A stretch of 64,000 nt of DNA from NCBI RefSeq assembly GCF_016446475.1, contig NZ_JAEHFP010000001.1, positions 1-64,000 on the forward strand, in the 5' to 3' direction. Below, in pieces: positions 11,866 through 35,832 of this stretch. Origin of the DNA: Paracoccus binzhouensis (GTDB lineage Bacteria; Pseudomonadota; Alphaproteobacteria; Rhodobacterales; Rhodobacteraceae). Position numbers and translations under genes: made by a program. Numbering within the stretch: position 1 is the first letter of the stretch; every line of letters starts with the position of its first letter. The notes under the pieces were generated by a model, which was given only the letters and a program-made list of their open reading frames with translations, did no database searches and was not told the DNA's origin.

Positions 11866-12651
11866 TCACACGCGCTGTCCGGCGGCGATGATCTTGCGCA
11901 GGAAGGACTTCGTGCGGTCCTCTTGCGGCGCGGTGAATAGCTGGGCGGGCGGGCCCTGCTCGACGATGCGGCCCTTGTCGAAGAACAGCACGCGATCGGC
12001 GAAGTCACGGGCGAAGCCCATCTCATGCGTGACCAGCAGCATGGTCATGTCGGTTTCGGCGGCCAGGCGCTTCATCACCTCCAGCACCTCCTCGACCAGC
12101 TCGGGGTCGAGCGCGGATGTCACCTCGTCGAACAGCATGATCTGCGGCTGGAGCGCTAGGGCGCGGGCGATGGCGACGCGCTGCTTCTGGCCGCCGGACA
12201 GCTGGCTGGGCATGTAGTCGGCCTTGTCGGCCAGCCCCACCATGTCCAGCAACTCGCGCGCCCGCTTTTCGGCCACGGTCCGCGACTCGCCCTTGGTCAG
12301 CATCGGCGCCAGCGTGATGTTCTGCAAGACCGACTTGTGCGGGAACAGATTGAAATGCTGGAACACCATGCCGATATGGCGGCGCATCCTGTGCAGATGC
12401 GCCTCGTCCGCGGGCACCTCGGCGCCGTGCTTCTGCATGTGGTACAGCGGCTCGCCGCAGACCTCGATACGCCCGCCCGAGATGCCTTCCAGGGTCATCA
12501 GGATGCGCAGGATGGTGGTCTTGCCCGAGCCCGAGGGGCCGATCAGCGCCAGCTTCTCGCCCTTCATCACGTCGAAGTTCAGCCCGTCGATGACGGTCAG
12601 CGTCCCGAAGGATTTGCGCAGGTCCTGGATGCGGATGATCGGCTGGTCCAA
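11866..12651 (-). CDS. ehuA: Ectoine/hydroxyectoine ABC importer ATPase
   Basis: A 261-residue ATPase of the polar-amino-acid importer family (GlnQ/HisP-like). Walker A is GPSGSGKT at residues 38-45. The Q-loop is in GMVFQHFNLFPH, the signature is LSGGQKQR, Walker B is IMLFDEVTSALD and the switch His is in LLVTHEMG. It is the first gene of the catabolic operon. Its start is a TTG at 12651, supported by AAGGGGGA five bases upstream and by the family N-terminus (IIRIQDLRKSFG). The rare start codon may temper expression of the whole import module. Confidence 0.93.
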   Translation of the reverse strand: MDQPIIRIQDLRKSFGTLTVIDGLNFDVMKGEKLALIGPSGSGKTTILRILMTLEGISGGRIEVCGEPLYHMQKHGAEVPADEAHLHRMRRHIGMVFQHFNLFPHKSVLQNITLAPMLTKGESRTVAEKRARELLDMVGLADKADYMPSQLSGGQKQRVAIARALALQPQIMLFDEVTSALDPELVEEVLEVMKRLAAETDMTMLLVTHEMGFARDFADRVLFFDKGRIVEQGPPAQLFTAPQEDRTKSFLRKIIAAGQRV

Positions 12652-12704
12652 AGGCGTCCCCCTTGCTGTCGGATGGACCTTTGCAGCCCGATCAAATCAG
12701 GTCA

Positions 12705-12740
12705 ATATTAAAATAATATCATTACAATTTTTGCTTTGTC
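12705..12740 (-). promoter_or_regulatory. Putative ehuA promoter with palindromic operator (EnuR candidate site)
   Basis: Within the AT-rich 96-bp gap between enuR and ehuA, a minus-strand promoter can be drawn with GACAAA as -35 (12735-12740), a 16-bp spacer and TATTAT as -10 (12713-12718). A perfect inverted repeat, ATATTA-AAA-TAATAT (12705-12719), covers the -10. EnuR is a known repressor of ectoine operons that releases DNA on binding a catabolite, so this is the natural place for it to act. The binding itself is inference. Confidence 0.55.
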
Positions 12741-12747
12741 CTGCCTG

Positions 12748-14133
12748 TCAGATCAGCGGCAGCAGCGGCTCCGCCGTGCCGCCCAGGGTCTCGGCCACCA
12801 GGGTCAGGCCGCGGCGCAACTCCTCGGCGCTGGTCGAGCCGAGCGCGATTCGCACCGCGTCGCGCCGGCCGCGCTCGCTCAGCCGGAAGGCGCGGCCCGA
12901 GGCGACGGCCACGCCGCGCTGGCGGGCCTGGGCGACGAATTCCTCCTCGTCACGGCCGGGCGGCAGTTCCAGCCAGATATGCAGGCTTTGCGGATGGGCG
13001 CGGAAGGGCGTGCCGCCCAGCACCTCGCGGGCGATGCGGTGGCGGGCGGCCAGCGCCGCGCGCTGCCAGTCGATCAGCCGGTCGACGGTGCCGTCGCTGA
13101 TCCAGTGGCTCAGCAGCTCGACCATGGCCGGGGTGGCCATCCAGTTCGTCACCAGATGCCGGTTGGCGGTGGCCGAGGCAAGCCGCGCCGGCGACAGCAG
13201 CCATGCGACCCGCAGGCCGGGCAGCGTGGTCTTGGTGAAGCCGTTGATGTGCAGCACCCGCTCGGGCGCCAACACGGCCATGGGCGGCGGGCGGTCCGGG
13301 ACCATCGCGTTCAGCATGTCGTTCTCGACGATCAACAGGTCGTGGCGGCGGGCGATCTCGGCCAGTTCGGCCCGGCGCTGGGTGCTGGTCATGATCGCCA
13401 TGGGGTTGATCGCCGCCGGCTGCATGTAAAGCGCGCGCAGGCTGCCCTTGCGGGCCAGGTGATCCAGCGCCTCGGGGATGATGCCGTCTTCGTCGACCGG
13501 CAGGCCCTCCAGGTGCAGGCCCAGGTATTTGCACAGCGGCATCAGCAGGTGATGGGTCAGCGCCGCCGCCGCCAGCGTGCCGCCGGCGGGCACCGCGCTC
13601 ATCACCGCGGTGGTGATGGCGGATGTGGCGCCGTCGGTGATGGTGATGTTTTCGGGCGCGGCCTCGATGCCCTTGCGGCGCAGCCAGTCGGCCGCGACCT
13701 GCCGGTGCTGCGGCAGGACCGAGTTCGGCCGAAAGGACAGCGCGGCGGGGGCGGTCAGGTTCTCGGCCACCCAATGCAGCCCGTCACGGAAGGTCTCGAC
13801 ATGCATCCGCTCGGTGACGGGTTTCAGGATCGACAGGTCGACCATCTCGCCCGGCCGCTCGGCCAGATAGGGCGGCGTGTTCTCGGCCCCCGGCGGCAGC
13901 ACGAAAGAGCCGCGGCCGATCTCTCCGACCACCAGGCCGCGGCGGATCAGCTCCTCATAGGCGCGCGAGACGGTCTGCACCGACAGGCCCAGATCGTCGG
14001 CCAGCCGGCGGTGCGGCGGCAGCCGGGTTCCGGCGGGCAGCTGGCCCTCGCGGATCGCGCGGGCATATTGCTCGGCAAGCGAGAGATAGGCCGGCCGATG
14101 CAGGGTGCCGGGATCGGGGGTCCAGATTGTCAT
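12748..14133 (-). CDS. enuR: MocR/GntR-type PLP-binding regulator of ectoine catabolism
   Basis: A 461-residue regulator with an N-terminal GntR winged helix (residues about 12-80, with RLADDLGLSVQTVSRAYEEL) joined to an aminotransferase-like fold-type I domain. Lys301 in GFTKTTLPGLR is the expected PLP-linking lysine, in line with the Lys at about 302 described for Ruegeria pomeroyi EnuR. The family senses L-2,4-diaminobutyrate derivatives through PLP and derepresses ectoine genes. It lies directly upstream of ehuA, same strand. No Shine-Dalgarno precedes the ATG, and a promoter ends six bases before it, so the message may be leaderless. Confidence 0.93.
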   Translation of the reverse strand: MTIWTPDPGTLHRPAYLSLAEQYARAIREGQLPAGTRLPPHRRLADDLGLSVQTVSRAYEELIRRGLVVGEIGRGSFVLPPGAENTPPYLAERPGEMVDLSILKPVTERMHVETFRDGLHWVAENLTAPAALSFRPNSVLPQHRQVAADWLRRKGIEAAPENITITDGATSAITTAVMSAVPAGGTLAAAALTHHLLMPLCKYLGLHLEGLPVDEDGIIPEALDHLARKGSLRALYMQPAAINPMAIMTSTQRRAELAEIARRHDLLIVENDMLNAMVPDRPPPMAVLAPERVLHINGFTKTTLPGLRVAWLLSPARLASATANRHLVTNWMATPAMVELLSHWISDGTVDRLIDWQRAALAARHRIAREVLGGTPFRAHPQSLHIWLELPPGRDEEEFVAQARQRGVAVASGRAFRLSERGRRDAVRIALGSTSAEELRRGLTLVAETLGGTAEPLLPLI

Positions 14134-26172: not shown

Positions 26173-27174
26173 TCAGGCGATCTGGAAACCGTGCCGCAGC
26201 GGGTCGTCGTCATCGACCAGGATGGTGTTGTGGCCGGTGATCCGGGCCCAGCCGCCGATGCTGGGCAGGATGCCGGCATGGGGGCCAACCGTCACCGCCT
26301 GCTCGGCCCGGCCCTCGAAGACGGTGCCGATCAGGCTCTTGTTGCGGAAGCTTTCGCCCACCGCCAGCCGGCCCTTGCCGTGAAGCTGCGCCATGCGCGC
26401 CGAGGTGCCGGTGCCGCCGGGCGAGCGGTCGATGGCCTTGTCGCCATAGAAGACCGCGTCGCGGCCGTCGCAATCCGGCCCATCCGGGCCGTCGCACCAG
26501 ATGGCGTGATGGACGCCGCGGATTCGGTCGTCCTCGGGATGGACGACGGTTTCGCCGAACCCGGCCAGCGCATCGCGCAGCGCCCGGCTGTGGGTCACGA
26601 TCTCGGCGGCGCTCATGCCGGTCAGACCGGGCCAGCTGTCCTGCGGCTCGATCACCGCGTAGAAATTGCCGCCATAGGCGATGTCCACCACCAGCGGGCC
26701 AAGGCCGGGGACATCGACGCGGATATCGGCGCTGTGCAGGAAGCTCGGGACGTTGAACAGCCGCACCGAGGCGACGCGCCCGCCCTCCATGGCGTATTCC
26801 GCGTCGACCCGGCCGGCCGGGGTCTCGATGGCGAGCCGGCCGGAGGTCTTCGGCGTGACCAGCCCCTCTTCGATGGCGACGGTGGAAAGGCCGATGGTGC
26901 CGGCGCCGCACATCGGCAGGCAGCCCGAGACCTCGATGAAGAGCGCGGCGAAGTCGCAATCCTCGCGATGGGCCGGATAGATGATCGCGCCCGACATGAT
27001 GTCATGGCCGCGCGGCTCGAACATCAGCGCGGTGCGCACCCAGTCGTGCTCGCGCAGGAACAGATCGCGCCGCTCGAAGATCGGCAGATGCGGCAAGAGC
27101 GGCGCGCCGCCCGCCACGACCCGGACCGGGTTGCCGCAGGTATGCGCGTCGATGCAGAAGAAGCGGTGGCGCAT
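26173..27174 (-). CDS. Proline-racemase-superfamily protein, 4-hydroxyproline epimerase-like, with altered active site
   Basis: A 333-residue member of the proline racemase/4-hydroxyproline 2-epimerase family. The first catalytic Cys is present (Cys89 in PMCGAGTIG). At the second position the sequence is DRSPGGTGTS, so Gly253 replaces the Cys of epimerases (or the Thr of trans-3-hydroxyproline dehydratases). Ala91 also replaces the usual His of MCGH. Both changes are plain in the DNA (GGC and GCC codons). The reading frame is intact and codon use normal, so this looks like a changed enzyme rather than a dead gene. It ends an operon encoding a betaine/proline-type importer and probably acts on the imported ring compound. 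Confidence 0.8.
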   Translation of the reverse strand: MRHRFFCIDAHTCGNPVRVVAGGAPLLPHLPIFERRDLFLREHDWVRTALMFEPRGHDIMSGAIIYPAHREDCDFAALFIEVSGCLPMCGAGTIGLSTVAIEEGLVTPKTSGRLAIETPAGRVDAEYAMEGGRVASVRLFNVPSFLHSADIRVDVPGLGPLVVDIAYGGNFYAVIEPQDSWPGLTGMSAAEIVTHSRALRDALAGFGETVVHPEDDRIRGVHHAIWCDGPDGPDCDGRDAVFYGDKAIDRSPGGTGTSARMAQLHGKGRLAVGESFRNKSLIGTVFEGRAEQAVTVGPHAGILPSIGGWARITGHNTILVDDDDPLRHGFQIA

Positions 27175-27175
27175 G

Positions 27176-28006
27176 TCAGCGTTTCCGGCGTTCGCGCTGC
27201 AAGGCGCCGCGCGACAGCCGGTCCATCAGCAGCGCTACGGCGACGATGGCGAGGCCGGCGCGCAGGCCGAGGCCCATCTCCATCCGCGTCAGGCCGCGCG
27301 TCACCTCGGCGCCAAGACCGCCGGCGCCGACCAGGCCCGCCAGCACCACCATGGCCAGCGACAGCAGGATGCACTGGTTCAGCCCGACCAGCAGCGTGGG
27401 CTTCGCGGCCGGGAACTCGATCTTCCACAGGATGGTGCGGGGCTTTGCGCCGATGGCCTGGCCCAGCTCCTTCAGGTCCGCGGGCACGCCGCGGAAGGCC
27501 AGCGTGGTCAGGCGCAGCATCGGCGGGATGCCATAGACGATGGTGGCGATGATCGCCGGGACGCGGCCCAGGCTGAAGATCATCACCGCCGGGATCAGGT
27601 AGACCCAGGGCGGCACGGTCTGCATCACGTCGAGGATCGGGCGCAGTGCCGCCTCGACCCGCGGCCGCCGGGCGGCAAGGATGCCCAGCGGAAAGGCGAT
27701 GGCGACCGCGATCAGCACCGCGACCAGCACCAGCGCGATGGTCTGCATCGAGGCCTGCCACAGCCCCATCAGCCAGCAGAAGCCCAGGCAGCAGCCGACC
27801 AGGATCGCCACCCGCAGCCCGGCCGCGAAGAAGGCCAGTGCCACCACCAGGGCGATCAGCCCGGCGGGCGGCAGGGTCAGGAAGGCGGCCTCGAGGGCGC
27901 CCAGCACCGCCTCGATCAGCTGCGTGACCAGGGCGAAGAACGGGTGGAAATTGGCGTTCAGCCAATCGACGACGGGGGCCAGCACGGCTCCGGGATTGAA
28001 GGTCAT
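27176..28006 (-). CDS. Betaine/proline-family ABC importer permease, second subunit
   Basis: A 276-residue ProW/OpuAB-type permease. Multiple membrane helices surround the central loop ELGQAIGAKPRTILWKIEFP (about residues 181-200), the coupling motif contacting the ATPase. The C-terminus is strongly basic (RERRKR). It is clearly different from the adjacent permease at 28003, so the channel is probably a heterodimer like OpuCB/OpuCD. It overlaps the upstream permease gene by ATGA, and the racemase-family gene starts two bases after it. Confidence 0.87.
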   Translation of the reverse strand: MTFNPGAVLAPVVDWLNANFHPFFALVTQLIEAVLGALEAAFLTLPPAGLIALVVALAFFAAGLRVAILVGCCLGFCWLMGLWQASMQTIALVLVAVLIAVAIAFPLGILAARRPRVEAALRPILDVMQTVPPWVYLIPAVMIFSLGRVPAIIATIVYGIPPMLRLTTLAFRGVPADLKELGQAIGAKPRTILWKIEFPAAKPTLLVGLNQCILLSLAMVVLAGLVGAGGLGAEVTRGLTRMEMGLGLRAGLAIVAVALLMDRLSRGALQRERRKR

Positions 28007-28836
28007 TTCACCCTCGCTGCGGCTTGCGTCACGCGGTCCAGCACCATGGTCAGCACGACGATGGCGATCGAGGCGTTGATCGAGGTGGCGATGTCCAGCG
28101 TGCGGATGGCGCCGTAGATGGTCTCGCCCAGGCCCCCCGAGCCGACGATGCCCGCGATCACCACCATGCCGAAGGCCATCATCAGGCTTTGGTTGATGCC
28201 GGCCATGATCGAGGGCACGGCAAAGGGCAGGCGGATCTTCCAGAACATCTGCATGGGCGTCACGCCGGTGGCGTGGCCCAGCTCGATGAACTCGTTGGGC
28301 GTCTGGCGAATGCCGAGCGCGGTCAGACGGATCGTCGGCGGCATGGCAACGATCACCGTGGCGACCAGCGCCGTGGCGGGGCCGTAGCCCAGCAGCGCGA
28401 TGGCCGGCAGCAGGTAGATATAGGGCGGCATGGTCTGGATCAGGTCCAGCACCGGGGTCAGCGCCCGGTCGAGGCGCGGCATCAGCCCGGCCAGCACCCC
28501 AAGCGGCAGGCTGATCGCCAGGGCGATGACGGTGGCGGCGATGACCAGCGCCAGCGTGCTCATGGTTTCCGGCCAGCGCGCCATGGCGGCGCAGGCGATC
28601 AGCGCGACGGCGGTGGCGATGCCGGCGCCAAGGCCCAGCATCCGCCAGGCCAGCAGTCCGGCCAGCGCGGCGATGACGTGGAAGGGCGGCAGCATCAGAA
28701 GCCAGAGCACCCCGTCATAGAGCCCTTCCAGCAGCAGCCGGAAGAAGTCGAAGACGAAGGCCGCGTGGTCGGAAAGCCAGAACAGCGCGTTGTCAACGGC
28801 CGTATCGAAGGCGGTCACGAAGTTTTCCATGGCCAC
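28003..28836 (-). CDS. Betaine/proline-family ABC importer permease, first subunit
   Basis: A 277-residue ProW-type permease. The coupling loop ELGHATGVTPMQMFWKIRLP lies at about residues 185-204, and ETIYGAIRTLD follows near the end. An N-terminal helix and two hydrophobic spans precede the conserved permease core (about 90-270). It would form a heterodimer with the product at 27176. It starts three bases after the ATPase gene ends. Confidence 0.87.
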   Translation of the reverse strand: MAMENFVTAFDTAVDNALFWLSDHAAFVFDFFRLLLEGLYDGVLWLLMLPPFHVIAALAGLLAWRMLGLGAGIATAVALIACAAMARWPETMSTLALVIAATVIALAISLPLGVLAGLMPRLDRALTPVLDLIQTMPPYIYLLPAIALLGYGPATALVATVIVAMPPTIRLTALGIRQTPNEFIELGHATGVTPMQMFWKIRLPFAVPSIMAGINQSLMMAFGMVVIAGIVGSGGLGETIYGAIRTLDIATSINASIAIVVLTMVLDRVTQAAARVK

Positions 28837-28839
28837 CCC

Positions 28840-29904
28840 TCAGGCCGCGGCGGCGACGGCATCGCCCCGCACGCCCTGCAGCAAGTTGCGGATGGTGACG
28901 ATGCCGACCAGCTTGCCGGCGTCCTCGACGGCGATGGCATCGCTGCCGGTCTCGGTGATCTGGCCGATCAGCGTGTCGATATCGGCCTCGGGCGAGCAGC
29001 GCGGCAAACCCTCCGCGGTTCCCTGCCATTCAGCGGCCGGGATCATCACCGAATGCGCCTTGACCAGGTGCAGCCGCGAGATGCCGGCGACGAAATCCGC
29101 GACATACTGGTCGGCCGGGTTCATCACGATCTCTTCGGCGGTGCCGGTCTGGATGATGACGCCGTCCTTCATGATGGCGATGCGGTCGCCGATGCGGATC
29201 GCCTCGTCGAGGTCGTGGGTGATGAACACCGCCGACTTGCCCAGGTCCTTGGTCAGCTGCCGGAACTCGTCCTGCAATTGCCGGCGGATCAGCGGGTCGA
29301 GGGCGGAAAACGGTTCGTCCATCAGGATGATCTCGGGGTCCGAGGTCAGCGCCCGGGCCAGGCCCACCCGCTGCTGCATGCCGCCCGACAGCTCCGACGG
29401 GTAGCGCGCCTTCCAGTCCGACAGGCCGACCTTGGCCAGCGCGGCCTCGGCGGCACGGTTGCGCTCGTCCTTCGGCACGCCCTGCACCTCCAGCCCGAAG
29501 GCGGCGTTCTCCAGCACCGTGCGCTGCGGCAGCAGGGCGACGGACTGGAACACCATGCCGATATGGTGGGCGCGGGTCTCGCGCAGGGTGGCGGCGTCCA
29601 TGGCGGCGATGTCACGGCCCTTGACCAGGACCTGGCCCAGGCTCGGCTCGATCAGCCGGTTCAGCAGTCGGATCAGCGTCGACTTGCCGCTGCCCGACAG
29701 GCCCATGATGCAGAAGATCTCGCCCCGTCGCACCTGCAGCGTGGCGTCCGAGACGCCGACCACACAGTTGTATTCCTGCAGGATGTCCTTCTTGGTCAGG
29801 CCGCGTTCGGTGATCGCGCGGATCGCCTCGGCATTGCGGTCGCCGAAGACCTTCCAGACCGACCGGCAGTCGATCAGGACGTCGCTGGTGTCTGCTTGCG
29901 TCAT
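28840..29904 (-). CDS. Betaine/proline-family ABC importer ATPase with CBS-like C-terminus
   Basis: A 354-residue ProV/OpuAA-type ATPase. Walker A is GLSGSGKST (about residues 62-70), the signature is LSGGMQQR, Walker B is IILMDEPFSALD and the switch His is in VFITHDLDEA. The region after about residue 280 resembles one CBS unit (SDAIAVEDAGKLVGIVTIRNLL), the ionic-strength sensor of osmoregulatory ProV/OpuA proteins, though shorter. The N-terminal insertion RGLTKKDILQEYNCVVGV is typical of ProV. I chose the ATG at 29904 for spacing from AGGG; 29910 is an alternative. Confidence 0.88.
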   Translation of the reverse strand: MTQADTSDVLIDCRSVWKVFGDRNAEAIRAITERGLTKKDILQEYNCVVGVSDATLQVRRGEIFCIMGLSGSGKSTLIRLLNRLIEPSLGQVLVKGRDIAAMDAATLRETRAHHIGMVFQSVALLPQRTVLENAAFGLEVQGVPKDERNRAAEAALAKVGLSDWKARYPSELSGGMQQRVGLARALTSDPEIILMDEPFSALDPLIRRQLQDEFRQLTKDLGKSAVFITHDLDEAIRIGDRIAIMKDGVIIQTGTAEEIVMNPADQYVADFVAGISRLHLVKAHSVMIPAAEWQGTAEGLPRCSPEADIDTLIGQITETGSDAIAVEDAGKLVGIVTIRNLLQGVRGDAVAAAA

Positions 29905-29941
29905 TTCCATTTCCCTGTCGCGGCTTTTGTCGTGCCATTGC

Positions 29942-29966
29942 CGGGCGGCCCGCATCGGGCCGCCCG
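29942..29966 (-). terminator. Intercistronic hairpin after the binding-protein gene
   Basis: CGGGCGGCCC (29942-29951) and GGGCCGCCCG (29957-29966) form a perfect 10-bp stem with a five-base loop, in the gap between the substrate-binding protein gene and its ATPase gene. There is no U-tract; partial termination or mRNA protection is likely. Confidence 0.65.
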
Positions 29967-29977
29967 TGCCGGAGGCA

Positions 29978-30829
29978 TCAGTAGGACTTGATGTTTTCCC
30001 AGCACCCGATCAGGTCGGCATGGGCCTCGATCCAGTCGGCGATGGCCTGGTCCATGGTCTTGCCCTCGTTCACGGCGGTGTTGATTGCGGTGACCTCGGC
30101 AATCGGCACGTAGACGCTGGCGATGGCCTCGCGCGCTTCGGGGTTTTCTTCCGAGAAGCCCTTCTGGCCGATCCAGTAATAGCCCTGCGGCGGGGCGAAG
30201 ACGCCCTTGGGATCGGCCAGGAACTTGGTGTCGAATTTCTGCACCATCCAGGACGGTTCCCAGATCGTCACCGCGATCCATTCCTGCCGGTCGGTCGCCG
30301 ATTTCAGGGCGGCGGTCATGGCGGCGGAGCTGCCCTCGACCAGCTGGAGGTTCAGCCCATAGGCGGATACCGCATCGCTGGCCTCGCGCATCAGGCCCGA
30401 TCCCGGCTCGATGCCGACGATCTTGCCGCCGAACTTCTCGGCATTGTCGTTCAGCTGCTCGATCGAATCCACGGGCACATATTTCGGCACGGCGATGCCC
30501 TGATAGAGCCCGTGCGACACCGGCGAGATCTTCTCCAGCCGGTTCTTGTTGCGCTGCCAGTAGTCTTGGGCGACGTAATCGGTCTGCGAGGCCAGGATCT
30601 GCACGTCGCCCTTGGCCAGCGCCGCATAGGCGATGCCCCATTCGGAAAACTCGGTCACCTCGACGGTGAACCCCTTGTCCTCCAGTACCTTCCTGGTGAT
30701 GCCGGTGATCGGCGTCAGGTCCTCCCAGGACAGGGTGCCTATCCTGATTGCCTTGTCCTGCGCCAGCGCCGGCGAGGCGAGCCCCAGCGCCACGGCGCCG
30801 GCAAGGATGGCTTTGAACAGTCTGCGCAT
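29978..30829 (-). CDS. Betaine/proline-family ABC substrate-binding protein
   Basis: A 283-residue OpuAC/ProX-type periplasmic binding protein with a clear Sec signal peptide (MRRLFKAILAGAVALGLA, cleaved after ALA near residue 23). Aromatic residues likely to cage a cationic amine appear in LSWEDLTP, IWEPSWM and GYYWIG. The ligand is presumably a quaternary or cyclic secondary amine (betaine, proline or hydroxyproline type); sequence alone does not choose. The first gene of the transport operon, with GGAGGA eight bases before its ATG and a 256-bp regulatory region upstream. Confidence 0.87.
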   Translation of the reverse strand: MRRLFKAILAGAVALGLASPALAQDKAIRIGTLSWEDLTPITGITRKVLEDKGFTVEVTEFSEWGIAYAALAKGDVQILASQTDYVAQDYWQRNKNRLEKISPVSHGLYQGIAVPKYVPVDSIEQLNDNAEKFGGKIVGIEPGSGLMREASDAVSAYGLNLQLVEGSSAAMTAALKSATDRQEWIAVTIWEPSWMVQKFDTKFLADPKGVFAPPQGYYWIGQKGFSEENPEAREAIASVYVPIAEVTAINTAVNEGKTMDQAIADWIEAHADLIGCWENIKSY

Positions 30830-31085: not shown

Positions 31086-32063
31086 TCAGCCAGCCTGTTC
31101 CCGCAGCGTGGCCAGCACATGCTCGACAAAAGCCGCCACACCGGGTCTCTTGAGAGACTTCTTCTTGCAATTCAGGAAGTTGCCGCGCCCCGCGGTGATC
31201 GGCGCCGGATGGGCGAAGACCAGCCGGCCTTCGGCGATCGGGGCGCGCACCATGTGGTGCCAGCCCAGCATCACCCCTTCGTCCCGCAGCGCGGCGTTCA
31301 TCAGCAGGCTGACCTTGTTCGTGGACAGGCTCGACGGCGCCTTGGCCCATTCGGCGCCCTGCGCGCGGAACCATTCCGCCCAGCCCAGCGGCTGCCAGCC
31401 GATGGCGTCCGCGCTCCAATGCCGGTCGTGCAGGTGCAGAAGGTTCACCCGGTTGAATGCGTCGGCGGTGTCGAAGGGGCCGTGCTCGGCCAGGAAACCG
31501 GGCGAGCAGACCGGCTGCGCGATCTCCTGGAACAGGAAATGCAGCTCCTCGCCGACCTCGCAGCGTTCGTTGCCGCAGAGGATGGCGATGTCCACCTCGG
31601 AATAGTTGCGCAGGGTGTCGTCGGCATCCGAGGCCAGCACCACGAAACCGATATCCGGATGCTGGGTGCGGAAGCTGTCGATCAGCGGCTGCAGCCAGAA
31701 CAGCGCCATGCCGTCGGTGGCCGAGACGGTCACGGTCTGCGGCCCCTCGTCCCCCGCCAGCATCGACACCGCGGCGCTGATCGTGTCCAGCCCCGCCGTC
31801 ACCGCCTGGAACAGCCCCGCCCCCTCGGGCGTCAGCTCCAGCGCATTGTGCTTGCGCACGAACAGCGGCACCTCCAGCGCGCGCTCCAGCAGGCGGATCT
31901 GCTGGCTGACCGCGCCCTGGGTCACGTTCAGTTCCTTCGCCGCCAGGGTGAAGCTCAGATGCTTGGCCGCGACCTCGAAGGTGGCGAAGGCCCCCAGCGA
32001 AGGCAGGTATCGGCGCTTGATCGGCGGCATGGCGGCGATGCTTCCCCTTGGACGGAGCGTCAT
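31086..32063 (-). CDS. GcvA-like LysR-family transcription regulator
   Basis: A 325-residue LysR regulator of the GcvA/AmpR-type branch. The winged helix spans about residues 17-75 (FEVAAKHLSFTLAAKELNVTQGAVSQQIRLLE), and the effector-binding domain follows from about residue 105. I list the ATG at 32063 because it overlaps the oxidoreductase stop (ATGA); the ATG at 32030 (MPPIKRR) is the alternative and gives a more typical length. Being translated with the catabolic enzymes, it most likely controls both flanking operons through the shared 17-bp box. The inducer is presumably a pathway intermediate. Confidence 0.85.
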   Translation of the reverse strand: MTLRPRGSIAAMPPIKRRYLPSLGAFATFEVAAKHLSFTLAAKELNVTQGAVSQQIRLLERALEVPLFVRKHNALELTPEGAGLFQAVTAGLDTISAAVSMLAGDEGPQTVTVSATDGMALFWLQPLIDSFRTQHPDIGFVVLASDADDTLRNYSEVDIAILCGNERCEVGEELHFLFQEIAQPVCSPGFLAEHGPFDTADAFNRVNLLHLHDRHWSADAIGWQPLGWAEWFRAQGAEWAKAPSSLSTNKVSLLMNAALRDEGVMLGWHHMVRAPIAEGRLVFAHPAPITAGRGNFLNCKKKSLKRPGVAAFVEHVLATLREQAG

Positions 32064-33406
32064 TCTAGCCGGGACTGCCACTCTTTCCAGCGCATATACG
32101 CATTGGCGCCGATGGTGTCGAAAGGATGCGGCGGCAGGCGGCCCGGCTCGGCCTCGGCGGTGAAGAACTCGGTGATGATGCTCGACCGCCCGCACAGCAT
32201 CTCGGCCGCGCCGATGCCGGTCAGGGTGCTGCGGGTGGTGCCCAGCCCGTTGTCCACGCAGGCGGCGAACAGCCCCGGCTCCAGCTCGCGCATGACCGAG
32301 ACGCCGTTCTTGGACAGGCACAGATGCCCCGACCAGCAATATTCGAAGCGCAGCCCCTTGAGCATCGGGAAGCGCGCGTCGAATTTCCGCCGCATCTGCC
32401 GGACCAGGCGGGCGAGGTCGGCGGCGCTGGTGCGCATCTGCGGCCGGTAATAGCCGCCCTGCCGGATGACGATGCGGTTGCCGCCCTGTGCCGGGCCGAT
32501 CCGGCGCACCGTGGTGCCCATCGGGTCCGAGGGGGTGGCGCCCCAGCATTCCTGGCCGCCAAGCGCGCGCAGGGCGTCGGGCGACAGCTCCTCGGTCATG
32601 CAGGCGTTCAGCATGATGTGCATCAGCCGGCCGCGCTTGAAGCCGAAGCTTTCCAGATGGCCGTTATTGGCCATGATGACCTTTTGCGCCCGCACCTCGC
32701 CCTGCGCCGTCGCCAGCCGCCAGCCCTGCGGCGCGGTCTCGATGGTCAGCACCGGCGCGTTCTCATGGATGCGCACGCCGCCGCGCTCCAGCCCGGCGGC
32801 AAGGCCCTGCACATAGCCCGCCGGCTGGATCATCGCCGTGCCGGGGGTGTAGAGGCCGCCGCGATAATAGCTGGTGCCGGTGATCTCGCGCATGGCGCGG
32901 GCGTCCAGCATCTCATGCGCCTCGCCCAGGTCGCGCAGGTGCCTGGCATAGCTTTCGTTCGCGGCCAGCCCGGCGGCCGAGGCGGCGGCGTTGATCTTGC
33001 CGCTGCGCTGGAACCAGCCCTCGGGGATGGCGTATTCCGCCACCGCCTGCGCCGCGAAATCGATGGCATGGCGGTTCAGCCGCGTCAGCTGCCGGTCGTG
33101 GCTGTCGCCCGAGCCGGCATAGTCCGATGAGGTCAGCTCATGCGGCAGGTCGATCATGAAGCCGGAATTGCGCCCGGTGCCGCCTTCGGAAATCCGCGCG
33201 GCGTCCAGGATCACGACATCCAGCCCCGGGTCGATCTGGTGCAGGCGCCGGGCGGCCGAGAGCCCGGCGAAGCCGCCGCCGACGATGGCGACATCGCAGC
33301 CTGTGCTGCCTTCCAGCCGGGCGCGGGGCGCGACCGGGGGCAGGATGGCGCTCCACCCGGCCGGGCCGTTGAAGACCGGGGTGCGGACGGCCTGGTGCCG
33401 GGCCAT
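32060..33406 (-). CDS. FAD-dependent oxidoreductase (DAO family)
   Basis: A 448-residue flavoprotein of the D-amino-acid oxidase/PuuB-like family. The dinucleotide motif is VAIVGGGFAGLSAARRL (about residues 39-55), followed by the acidic strand end (VVILDAARISEGGTGRNSGF, about 64-83). In a hydroxyproline-type route it would oxidise the D-imino acid (cis-4-hydroxy-D-proline) to the pyrroline; a secondary- or tertiary-amine oxidase/demethylase is also possible given the betaine-type importer. Gene order (aldehyde dehydrogenase one base upstream, regulator overlapped downstream) ties it to the pathway. Confidence 0.82.
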   Translation of the reverse strand: MARHQAVRTPVFNGPAGWSAILPPVAPRARLEGSTGCDVAIVGGGFAGLSAARRLHQIDPGLDVVILDAARISEGGTGRNSGFMIDLPHELTSSDYAGSGDSHDRQLTRLNRHAIDFAAQAVAEYAIPEGWFQRSGKINAAASAAGLAANESYARHLRDLGEAHEMLDARAMREITGTSYYRGGLYTPGTAMIQPAGYVQGLAAGLERGGVRIHENAPVLTIETAPQGWRLATAQGEVRAQKVIMANNGHLESFGFKRGRLMHIMLNACMTEELSPDALRALGGQECWGATPSDPMGTTVRRIGPAQGGNRIVIRQGGYYRPQMRTSAADLARLVRQMRRKFDARFPMLKGLRFEYCWSGHLCLSKNGVSVMRELEPGLFAACVDNGLGTTRSTLTGIGAAEMLCGRSSIITEFFTAEAEPGRLPPHPFDTIGANAYMRWKEWQSRLE

Positions 33407-33407
33407 G

Positions 33408-34913
33408 TCAGTCGAGGCCCGCTTCGGCGGTGTCGGTCAGGTCCAGCCAGATGGTTTTCAGCTGGGTATATTGGTCATGGGCGTGGATCGAGTTGTCGCG
33501 CCCGCCGAAGCCCGATTGCTTGTAGCCGCCGAAGGGGGTGGTCACGTCGCCCTCGCCGAAGCTGTTGACCGTCACCGTGCCGGCGCGCAGGGCGCGGGCG
33601 CCGCGCAGCGCCCGCTTGCCGTTGGCCGAGAAGATCGAGGCCGCCAGCCCGTATTCGGTGTCGTTCGCCACCGTGATCGCCTCTTCGAAACTGTCCACCA
33701 CGATCACCGTCAGGATCGGGCCGAAGATCTCCTCGACCGCCAGCTTCGAATCCCGCTCGGTCTCGACGATCGTGGGCTCGATGAAGCCGGGGCTGACGAC
33801 ATTGCCGCCGACCAGCACGTTTTCCGATTTCGCCGCATCCAGATAGCTGCTGACCTTGTCGAAATGCGCCTGGCTGACCAGCGGGCCGACGCGGTTGGCC
33901 GGATCCAGCGGATCGCCGACCAGCCAGCCGGCCGCCTCGGCCCGGACCTTTTCCAGCAGCCGGTCCCTGATGCCGCGCTGCACGATCAGACGCGATCCGG
34001 CCGAGCAGTTCTGCCCCATGTTCCAGAAGGCGCCGTTGACGACATGCGCCGCCACCGCGTCCAGATCCTCGGCATCGTCCAGCACGATGCAGGGGTTCTT
34101 GCCGCCCAGTTCCAGCACCACCTCCTTGAGGTTGCTGTCGGCGGAATAGTTCAGGAAGCGACGCCCGGTCGCGGTCGAGCCGGTAAAGCTGACCATGTCC
34201 ACATCCGCGTGCCGGCCCAGCGGCTCGCCCACCTCGCGGCCCGAGCCGGTGACGATGTTCAGCACCCCGGCCGGCAGCCCGGCCTTGGCGGCCAGTTCCG
34301 CCACGCGCAGCGCGGTCAGCGTGGTCTCGCCCGCAGGCTTCAGCACCACCGAGCAGCCGGCGGCCAGCGCCGGGCCGATCTTCCAGGCCAGCATCAGCAG
34401 CGGGAAGTTCCAGGGCAGCACCAGGCCCACGACGCCCACCGGCTCGCGCACCACCATGGCGATGTGGTTGTCGGATGCGGGCGAGACCTGGTCGTAGATC
34501 TTGTCGATCAGCTCGGCATGCCACTTGATGACATGGATCGTCTCGGGCACATCCACGGTTTCGCAATCGAAGATGGTCTTGCCGGCGTCGAGGCTTTCCA
34601 GCACCGCCAGTTCGCGGGCATTCTCCTCCATCAGCGCGGCGAGGCGCAGCAGGGTTTCCTTGCGCTCGCCGGGATGCAGCTTGGACCAGCGGCCGTCCTC
34701 GAAGGCGGCGCGGGCGGCGGCGACGGCAACGTCCACGTCCTCGGGGCCGCAGGCGGCGATCTCGGCCACCGCCTCGCCCGTGGCCGGGTTGGTCGTGGTG
34801 AAGGTCTTGCCCGAAATTGCCGGGCGGAAGGTGCCGTCGATGAAGGCCAGCTTCGGGAAGATCAGGCCGGCAGCGATGGCCTTGTATTCCTCGGTGGTCA
34901 GCAGGTCGCTCAT
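33408..34913 (-). CDS. Aldehyde dehydrogenase, candidate 2-oxoglutarate-semialdehyde dehydrogenase
   Basis: A 501-residue NAD(P)-dependent aldehyde dehydrogenase of the PuuC/betaine-aldehyde-like group. LPWNFP is at about residues 166-171, the general base Glu268 is in VLELGGKNP and the nucleophile Cys303 is in GQNCSAGSR. With the DapA-family enzyme before it and the FAD oxidoreductase after it, the best-fitting role is oxidation of 2-oxoglutarate semialdehyde to 2-oxoglutarate, the last step of hydroxyproline catabolism. The start at 34913 is backed by GAGGGG seven bases upstream. Other aldehydes cannot be excluded. Confidence 0.85.
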   Translation of the reverse strand: MSDLLTTEEYKAIAAGLIFPKLAFIDGTFRPAISGKTFTTTNPATGEAVAEIAACGPEDVDVAVAAARAAFEDGRWSKLHPGERKETLLRLAALMEENARELAVLESLDAGKTIFDCETVDVPETIHVIKWHAELIDKIYDQVSPASDNHIAMVVREPVGVVGLVLPWNFPLLMLAWKIGPALAAGCSVVLKPAGETTLTALRVAELAAKAGLPAGVLNIVTGSGREVGEPLGRHADVDMVSFTGSTATGRRFLNYSADSNLKEVVLELGGKNPCIVLDDAEDLDAVAAHVVNGAFWNMGQNCSAGSRLIVQRGIRDRLLEKVRAEAAGWLVGDPLDPANRVGPLVSQAHFDKVSSYLDAAKSENVLVGGNVVSPGFIEPTIVETERDSKLAVEEIFGPILTVIVVDSFEEAITVANDTEYGLAASIFSANGKRALRGARALRAGTVTVNSFGEGDVTTPFGGYKQSGFGGRDNSIHAHDQYTQLKTIWLDLTDTAEAGLD

Positions 34914-34914
34914 C

Positions 34915-35832
34915 TCACTTCCCCTCGACAATGGCGGCGACGGTGGTTTTCAGCGTGGCGATCACGGCTTCCAGTTCGGCCTTTTCCTCGGCATTCAAGC
35001 CTTGCAGCGGCGGGCGCATCGGACCGGCGCGCAGGCCCGAGACCTCGACCCCGTGCTTGACGCATTGGATGAACTTGCCGCCCTGTTCCAGCACCGCCAT
35101 CAGCGGCATCATCGCCGCCATGATCTTGCGGCCCTTGGCGAAATCGCCGCGCACGGCGCAGGCTTCGTAAAGCGCGACATGCTCCTCGGGCAGGAAGTTC
35201 GAGCCGGCGCAGATCCAGCTGCGCGCGCCCCAGGCGAAGAATTCCAGCGCCTGGTCGTCCATGCCGCAGCTCAGCTGGATGTTCGGATAGTCGCAGGCCA
35301 GCAGGTGGATGCGGTTCACGTCGCCCGAGCTTTCCTTGATGCCGATGACGTTCTTCGACTGGCTGACGATGTCCAGGAACGCGCGCCCCATGCTGACGCC
35401 CATGCGGCCGGGATAGTTGTAGAGGATGACCGGCAGGTCGGCGGCGCGGTCGATCTCTAGCGCATTGGCGGCGTTCTCGGCCTCGGTCGGCACCGAATAG
35501 GGCGGCGTGCCCAGCAGGATCGCATCCGCCCCCATCTCGCGCGCGCCCGCCGCCAGCGCGATGGAATCGGGAGTGCGCATGGCGCCGGTGCCGACGATGA
35601 CCGGCAGCCGGCCATCGGCGCGCTCGGTGATGAAGCGGGCCAGTTCCAGCCGCTCCTCGACGGTCTCGGCATAGTTCTCGCCGGTCGAGCCGCCCGAGAT
35701 CAACCCGTGGACGCCCGCCGCCACCAGCCGCTCGACCAGATCGGCCAGGGCGTCGTGGTCGATCGCGCCATCGGCGTGAAACGGGGTGATCACCGGGGTG
35801 TAAATGCCTTCCAGAACCATGCGGGGTGTCAT
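34915..35832 (-). CDS. DapA/N-acetylneuraminate-lyase family protein, candidate pyrroline-hydroxycarboxylate deaminase
   Basis: A 305-residue class I aldolase-type TIM barrel of the DHDPS family. The Schiff-base Lys166 is in GIKESSGD, the proton-relay Tyr140 in LYNYPGRMG, and the carboxylate-binding loop reads GGSTGENYAET (about residues 47-57). In bacterial 4-hydroxyproline degradation a member of this family deaminates 1-pyrroline-4-hydroxy-2-carboxylate to 2-oxoglutarate semialdehyde, which is the substrate of the aldehyde dehydrogenase encoded next. The start at 35832 follows GGAGG by seven bases. It leads the second operon of the cluster. Confidence 0.85.
   Translation of the reverse strand: MTPRMVLEGIYTPVITPFHADGAIDHDALADLVERLVAAGVHGLISGGSTGENYAETVEERLELARFITERADGRLPVIVGTGAMRTPDSIALAAGAREMGADAILLGTPPYSVPTEAENAANALEIDRAADLPVILYNYPGRMGVSMGRAFLDIVSQSKNVIGIKESSGDVNRIHLLACDYPNIQLSCGMDDQALEFFAWGARSWICAGSNFLPEEHVALYEACAVRGDFAKGRKIMAAMMPLMAVLEQGGKFIQCVKHGVEVSGLRAGPMRPPLQGLNAEEKAELEAVIATLKTTVAAIVEGK

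Follow-up and report, generated by a model that had tools for sequence, protein, structure and literature searches.

A mechanism with two bases and two cysteines is the textbook feature of the proline racemase superfamily (PRS). In 4-hydroxyproline 2-epimerase (4HypE), the bases are given as Cys88 and Cys236, and the prolyl nitrogen is coordinated by His90 and Asp232 (PMC4113996). Replacement of Cys by Ser at either catalytic site is reported to abolish epimerisation in the canonical Pseudomonas 4HypE (PMC1964878), and in a Ser-Cys enzyme the first residue is described as acting from trans to cis and the second from cis to trans (PMC4113996). Published discrimination sites are R1 (Ser/Val) and R2 (His) (PMC1964878) as well as site 5 (Cys/Tyr) (PMC4364671). 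A sequence-only reading of the locus described here listed Cys-Cys, Ser-Cys and Cys-Thr as the known catalytic pairs, to which Ser-Thr has to be added (PMC4113996; PMC4364671). It was also stated in 2014 that some clusters of the superfamily lack one or both cysteines (PMC4113996). A Cys/Gly pair was named in no title or abstract opening met in our literature search. Hydroxyproline betaine is epimerised at C2 by HpbD (4e8g/4izg/4j1o, 2pmq, 4h2h), an enolase superfamily enzyme unrelated in fold and family to the PRS protein described below.

We analysed 64,000 nucleotides of Paracoccus binzhouensis DNA (contig NZ_JAEHFP010000001.1, positions 1 to 64,000; hereafter the window), in which an uninterrupted reading frame of 333 amino acids from ATG to stop encodes a PRS protein (Table 1). 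PF05544 was its sole family match (412.1 bits, cut-off 27; profile positions 1-325 of 325), and MR_MLE, the enolase superfamily of HpbD, was not matched. An AlphaFold2 model (mean pLDDT 93.5) aligned along its length with solved PRS structures (Z 45.8 to 6r76, rmsd 1.8 over 330 residues; Z 45.7 to 1w61). Judged by profile and predicted model, the protein is a full-length PRS member with the PRS fold. It scored 542.3 bits against the NCBIfam equivalog NF010578 (PRK13971), '4-hydroxyproline epimerase' (cut-off 376), 251 of 540 bits against NF045511 and 179 of 550 bits against NF047722. This curated equivalog gives Cys/Gly proteins the 4-hydroxyproline epimerase name despite the missing second catalytic Cys. 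A search of the same genome found no second full-length PRS gene; contig 197 carries the C-terminal remnant of another PRS gene (L122:1044-1526), followed by what we read as an ornithine-cyclodeaminase-like reading frame.

Table 1. Features of the PRS gene and its operon, in window coordinates
Feature	Position	Strand	Basis
PRS protein, Cys/Gly type	26173..27174	-	relatives annotated 4-hydroxyproline epimerase; profile matches, AlphaFold2 model
Gly253 codon GGC, replaces second catalytic Cys	26416..26418	-	sequence
His222 codon	26509..26511	-	strict in Gly clade, Ser/Thr in Cys clade (alignment)
Ala91 codon GCC, replaces MCGH His (ring nitrogen contact in 4HypE)	26902..26904	-	sequence; PMC4113996, Fig. 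5 legend
Cys89 codon TGC, first catalytic residue kept	26908..26910	-	sequence
ABC permease, ProW/ChoW type	27176..28006	-	profile matches
Second ABC permease, ProW/ChoW type	28003..28836	-	profile matches
ABC ATPase, ProV type	28840..29955	-	TIGR01186 over cut-off
OpuAC-type substrate-binding protein	29978..30829	-	closest in sequence, among solved structures, to binding proteins of betaine systems
LysR/GcvA-type regulator	31086..32030	-	profile matches; start approximate
FAD-dependent amine/amino acid oxidase	32060..33406	-	PF01266
Aldehyde dehydrogenase (ALDH)	33408..34931	-	profile matches
Dihydrodipicolinate-synthase (DHDPS) family enzyme, predicted deaminase/dehydratase	34915..35832	-	start chosen by eye

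Homologues were drawn from the best 80 of 582 confirmed loci (named records) and from 30 loci of 101 relatives. The alignment held 118 distinct proteins, namely 52 with Cys-Ala/Gly (Gly-type), 56 with Cys-His/Cys (Cys-type) and 10 of other PRS types, the last being excluded from the Gly-versus-Cys contrast. Among these sampled loci, MCGA together with SPGG was present in 52/52 distinct close homologues, whereas MCGH with SPCG was present in 56/56 of the nearest canonical relatives. By tblastn, homologues with at least 69% identity all had MCGA with SPGG, and those of the same subfamily at 54-66% all had MCGH with SPCG. A maximum-likelihood tree (quick mode) separated the 52 from the other proteins at a branch (SH-aLRT 99, stem 0.42) inside the Cys-Cys group. 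On this evidence from sequence, the Cys89/Ala91/Gly253 proteins are one clade. Other sites co-vary with it: position 222 was His in all 52 Gly-type and Ser or Thr in the 56 Cys-type proteins, and Arg277, Val174 and Gly237 were strict in the former and present in 1, 1 and 6 of the latter. Across the 52 sequences Gly253 and Ala91 were each encoded by four different codons and are therefore not one copied error; synonymous codon variation was seen at 89, 91, 222 and 253. A sequencing error or a lone oddity is ruled out by this codon variety and by the 52 homologues. Values of dN/dS ranged from 0.07 to 0.28 (15 pairs from six Paracoccus sequences) and nine inspected sites had zero amino acid changes across the 52 sequences; by these measures the Gly-type gene is under purifying selection. 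Gly-type fragments were seen in Paracoccus genomes G058, G014 and G060, suggesting that the gene may be being lost there.

The codons and the uninterrupted frame bear out what the sequence-only reading had described, an intact gene with Cys89, Ala91 and Gly253. That reading had allowed that close relatives might all carry Cys at the second site, where we found Gly in every one of the 52. It had also proposed looking for a separate clade with a common neighbourhood; using the tree and a neighbourhood count rather than a full similarity network, we found both.

The Cys/Gly pair is not the mark of a single PRS lineage. A scan for DRSPGGTGT in 385 alphaproteobacterial genomes, a thin sample of the class in which the window's genome was the sole one of its genus, matched five, namely the window's genome and four others whose match belongs to a different PRS lineage. 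This second lineage (L151, L152, L153, L155) resembles the window protein in its MCG...SPGG pair but differs in its low identity (32-35%), its retained MCGH and its proline-type Phe at R1. In three contexts (L156-L158), acyl-CoA dehydrogenase, thiolase-like and CoA-transferase or SDR-like reading frames adjoined it in our own reading. The change from Cys to Gly thus probably arose at least twice, and since the second lineage keeps MCGH, the change from His to Ala is not its automatic companion and Cys/Gly alone does not define the betaine-linked group.

We then compared the Gly clade with 4R-hydroxyproline 2-epimerases. The catalytic pair of these enzymes, one residue on each face (Cys-Cys or Ser-Cys), was lacking, as Gly253 occurred in 52/52, and so was the MCGH His of the Cys-Cys enzymes, with Ala91 in 52/52. 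In contrast, the pocket sites (R1 Ser/Val, R2 His, site 5 Cys/Tyr) aligned with Ser61, His223 and Tyr243, and these three and Asp249 were kept in all 52 proteins. A ring with a 4-hydroxyl should therefore still fit. Going by the aligned residues, the nitrogen side and the D-face base have changed. By analogy with the Ser-Cys enzyme, Cys89 would act on the L isomer. As exchange of either cysteine for Ser abolishes epimerisation in the canonical enzyme, a conventional mechanism is unlikely in the Gly clade, and a Gly-type epimerase would need a substitute for the second Cys. The likeness to Cys-Cys 4HypE thus extends over family, fold, a full-length match, Cys89, the four kept residues and an identity that reaches 66% with the closest Cys-Cys relatives, whereas the differences are Gly for the second Cys, Ala for the MCGH His, His for Ser/Thr222 and another operon with a betaine-type importer. 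With the Cys-Thr and Ser-Thr trans-3-hydroxyproline dehydratases the protein shares a first-position base without a second thiol, but it has Gly for Thr, a pocket of the 4-hydroxyproline type and no Pyr2C reductase gene in its operon.

In the window, the PRS gene comes after the permease, ATPase, binding protein, LysR, oxidase, ALDH and DHDPS genes, all on the minus strand. Neighbourhoods were counted by tblastn with R. johnstonii proteins in 49 Gly-type loci (48 named and the window) and 32 Cys-type loci, because a greedy choice of reading frames had picked some antisense ones (e.g. F8, F13). At 45% identity or more, the Gly-type loci had DHDPS in 42, ALDH in 44, the FAD oxidase in 40 and GntR in 38, with the importer's binding protein in 44, its ATPase in 44 and its permeases in 44 and 46. 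The Cys-type loci had 0/32 for every operon gene except ALDH (1), although these zeros are slightly weakened by some short Cys-type loci (L072 4.7 kb, L074 3.2 kb) and loci cut by contig ends were scored absent. At 30% identity, Cys-type counts were 6 for DHDPS, 11 for the ATPase, 2 for ALDH and 0 for permeases, binding protein, oxidase and GntR. The betaine-type importer that the sequence-only reading had pointed out beside this gene is common to the clade (44-46/49 Gly-type versus 0/32 Cys-type loci at 45% identity). Oxidase, ALDH and DHDPS adjoining Cys-type genes shared no more than 24, 32 and 33% identity with their counterparts in the Gly operon and, at such identities, are other subfamilies. 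The window operon has a LysR regulator, whereas 37/49 Gly-type loci carry, at 30% identity, a GbdR-related regulator (208 bits, below the cut-off of 480). The operon was kept in Rhizobiales, Rhodobacterales and Pseudomonas; beside the Gly-type gene it was not found in P. denitrificans DSM 413, P. beibuensis and Salinicola. Some Paracoccus carry a PRS gene of the Ser-Cys type immediately downstream of the Gly-type one (L047:11042-12022; L004:11053-12022); it is split over two frames in L004/L085 and absent from the window. In a larger Paracoccus cluster (L047, G035), second DHDPS and oxidase copies lie there with it, a hint that the two PRS types have separate roles in that cluster.

In Rhizobium johnstonii 3841, the Gly-type operon is part of an island on pRL12, from 559 to about 585-586 kb. 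Its first genes encode an importer of the betaine type, a ProC-like protein, TetR, a flavoprotein resembling TMADH/OYE and ETF subunits. After these come class III alcohol dehydrogenase, fghA and gfa, then the Gly-type operon, and last a reductase like GbcB, a Rieske oxygenase and LysR. Betaine importer, demethylase-type genes, oxidase, DHDPS and ALDH are thus all together here, and genes for an Ldh-family and a ProC-like reductase also lie within the island. The flavoprotein presumably resembles StcD. In the stretches read between 556 and 625 kb, no racemase or epimerase candidate other than the Gly-type protein (RL_RS35575) is annotated; putA lies at 599.5 kb, about 15 kb past the island with other genes between. 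Old pRL12 gene numbers were counted from two agreeing anchors (TetR, pRL120518, and putA, pRL120554), and by this count the island importer would be Qat3 (pRL120514-6), which has been credited with residual glycine betaine uptake (PMC6421345). Literature passages on putA, Qat3 and other genes held no expression data for the 3841 Gly operon. Two genes annotated as DMSP-lyase-like accompany the ETF subunits in the 3841 island. DMSP-lyase-like genes near the Gly operon of R. johnstonii / R. leguminosarum (L132:9935-10540, 12290-12985; L115:12185-13465) include a DddP-like M24 protein (364 bits, below the cut-off of 600), and a role as sulfonium or betaine lyases is possible for them.

A Rieske oxygenase and a GbcB-like reductase were found within 10 kb in 19/49 Gly-type versus 0/32 Cys-type loci, the 19 being essentially one Rhizobium lineage. 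The Rieske protein scored 411 bits against the GbcA model, below the cut-off of 670; its nearest solved structures were 4qup (named 'monoxygenase; demethylase') and 3vca, which we take to be the stachydrine demethylase Stc2. In Rhizobium CIAT894, a 78%-identical Rieske protein is encoded on the opposite side of the Gly operon. In Paracoccus G026, G014 and P. versutus the operon is flanked by other Rieske and reductase genes, with about 36-41% identity; in G014 the Gly-type gene is only a fragment. A half-length Rieske match adjoins the Gly-type gene of P. denitrificans, and sarcosine oxidase subunits are encoded near it in L025, L049 and R. indicum. No demethylase adjoins the window operon; a GbcA-like Rieske protein and the flavoprotein are encoded on other contigs of that genome.

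We also compared whole genomes. The 3841-type Rieske protein at 80% identity or more was present in 10/28 Gly-type versus 0/20 Cys-type genomes, and in G109, G112, G131 and G147 it lay 2-6 kb from the flavoprotein. At 71-75% it also occurred in Paracoccus G013, G020 and G033, which have no Gly-type protein, so it is not exclusive to the Gly type. The flavoprotein comparison drew on 50 loci (28 of the 48 named Gly-type and 22 Cys-type, one left out), with G148, which has both PRS types, counted as Gly-type. The TMADH-like flavoprotein was found in 21/28 Gly-type versus 5/20 Cys-type genomes and, within the genus Paracoccus (at least 65%, near full length), in 6/6 Gly-type genomes versus 28/55 others (one-sided p 0.024), both tests being weak because phylogeny is uncorrected. 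With the thresholds used, 3 of the 28 Gly-type genomes searched had no Rieske match (G106, G107, G122) and 2 had no flavoprotein match (G115, G122).

HpbD catalyses the same reaction as we propose below for the Gly type. A protein from Paracoccus G035 was identified as HpbD by PDB matches to 4e8g/4izg/4j1o at 777 bits and by records annotated hpbD. Matches of at least 55% over most of the query were found in 7/48 Gly-type genomes, an eighth (G118) having a 60% fragment. At this identity, 40 of the 48 Gly-type genomes searched had no HpbD, 3841 included; in the window's genome it was not found, the best match being 24%. An anti-correlation of HpbD and Gly-type protein within the genus was considered and rejected, as 2/6 intact Gly-type genomes (G035, G059) have HpbD at 55% or more versus 4/55 others.

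We favour, with a probability of about 0.4, a Gly-type protein that is a C2-epimerase for N-methylated 4-hydroxyproline. For substrate, reaction, order of steps and the part of His222, we infer the following. The betaine-type importer would bring the N-methylated compound into the cell, and Cys89 would deprotonate C-alpha on the L face. With the ring nitrogen contact His91 and the Cys253 side chain gone, there would be room for the N-methyl groups, and the proton would be returned on the other face by His222 or by water in the space vacated by Cys253. N-demethylation would be carried out by Rieske and flavin enzymes with genes next to the operon or at other sites; oxidase, deaminase and aldehyde dehydrogenase would then yield alpha-ketoglutarate. 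This reading draws on the kept 4-hydroxyproline residues, the changed nitrogen contact and second base, the importer and demethylase linkage, the 3841 island, the lack of HpbD matches in most Gly-type genomes and the GbdR-related regulator. Against it count the effect of Cys-to-Ser exchange in a canonical 4HypE, the single Rhizobium lineage that makes up essentially all 19 Rieske loci, the Gly-type genomes with HpbD or with no Rieske or flavoprotein match, the Rieske protein in Paracoccus genomes of no Gly type, the three genes not accompanied by the operon and the window operon's lack of an adjacent demethylase. On the sequence-only suggestion of a new activity, the linked N-demethylation genes support a ring amine with N-substituents, and a one-base dehydratase is little favoured. 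A bolder and more doubtful proposal is a one-thiol, cofactor-independent 2-epimerase for hydroxyproline betaine, which would be the first enzyme of the proline racemase fold to act on a quaternary amine and the counterpart of the enolase-fold HpbD, having arisen through removal of two side chains round the ring nitrogen and gain of a histidine.

If the protein were an ordinary 2-epimerase of trans-4-hydroxy-L-proline with a stand-in for the second cysteine, for example His222, this would be consistent with the kept 4-hydroxyproline pocket and with an operon whose oxidase, DHDPS and ALDH belong to the same superfamilies as the enzymes of the known t4Hyp pathway (PMC4113996). No further full-length PRS gene was found in the window's genome, the catalytic pair can vary, as in Ser-Cys 4HypEs, and P. 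denitrificans PD1222 is reported to grow well on t4Hyp, at the level of the organism (PMC4113996). However, this reading has to accommodate the loss of canonical activity upon Cys-to-Ser exchange at either site (PMC1964878) and the absence of the nitrogen-contact His as well, its three pathway enzymes are at most 24% (oxidase), 32% (ALDH) and 33% (DHDPS) identical to those beside canonical genes, and importer and demethylase linkage are left unexplained; we regard it as unlikely. Still less probable is a one-base dehydratase, in which Cys89 takes the C-alpha proton, the 3-hydroxyl leaves and Gly replaces the inert Thr of the Cys-Thr and Ser-Thr trans-3-hydroxyproline dehydratases (t3HypD). Although the first base alone is kept, as described for t3HypD (PMC4113996), and Ldh-family and ProC-like reductases are encoded in the 3841 island, the pocket has the 4-hydroxyproline pattern, the window operon has no ketimine-reductase gene, DHDPS and ALDH would be unneeded after dehydration, and a quaternary nitrogen could presumably not give an imine product. 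Loss of a catalytic residue and the Paracoccus fragments (G058, G014, G060) might point to a non-catalytic or decaying copy, but the low dN/dS (0.07-0.28), the nine sites unchanged in 52 sequences and an operon kept across Rhizobiales, Rhodobacterales and Pseudomonas make this very improbable.

The name '4-hydroxyproline epimerase' is unsafe for the Gly clade. As NF010578 and RefSeq/GenBank records use it, it may introduce errors into metabolic models of rhizobia and Paracoccus. A widespread, conserved branch without the second base would be either a one-thiol epimerase or a new reaction. If the N-methylated-hydroxyproline reading is true, the Gly-type protein would provide the step that has been missing from plant-betaine use in many root-associated bacteria without HpbD.
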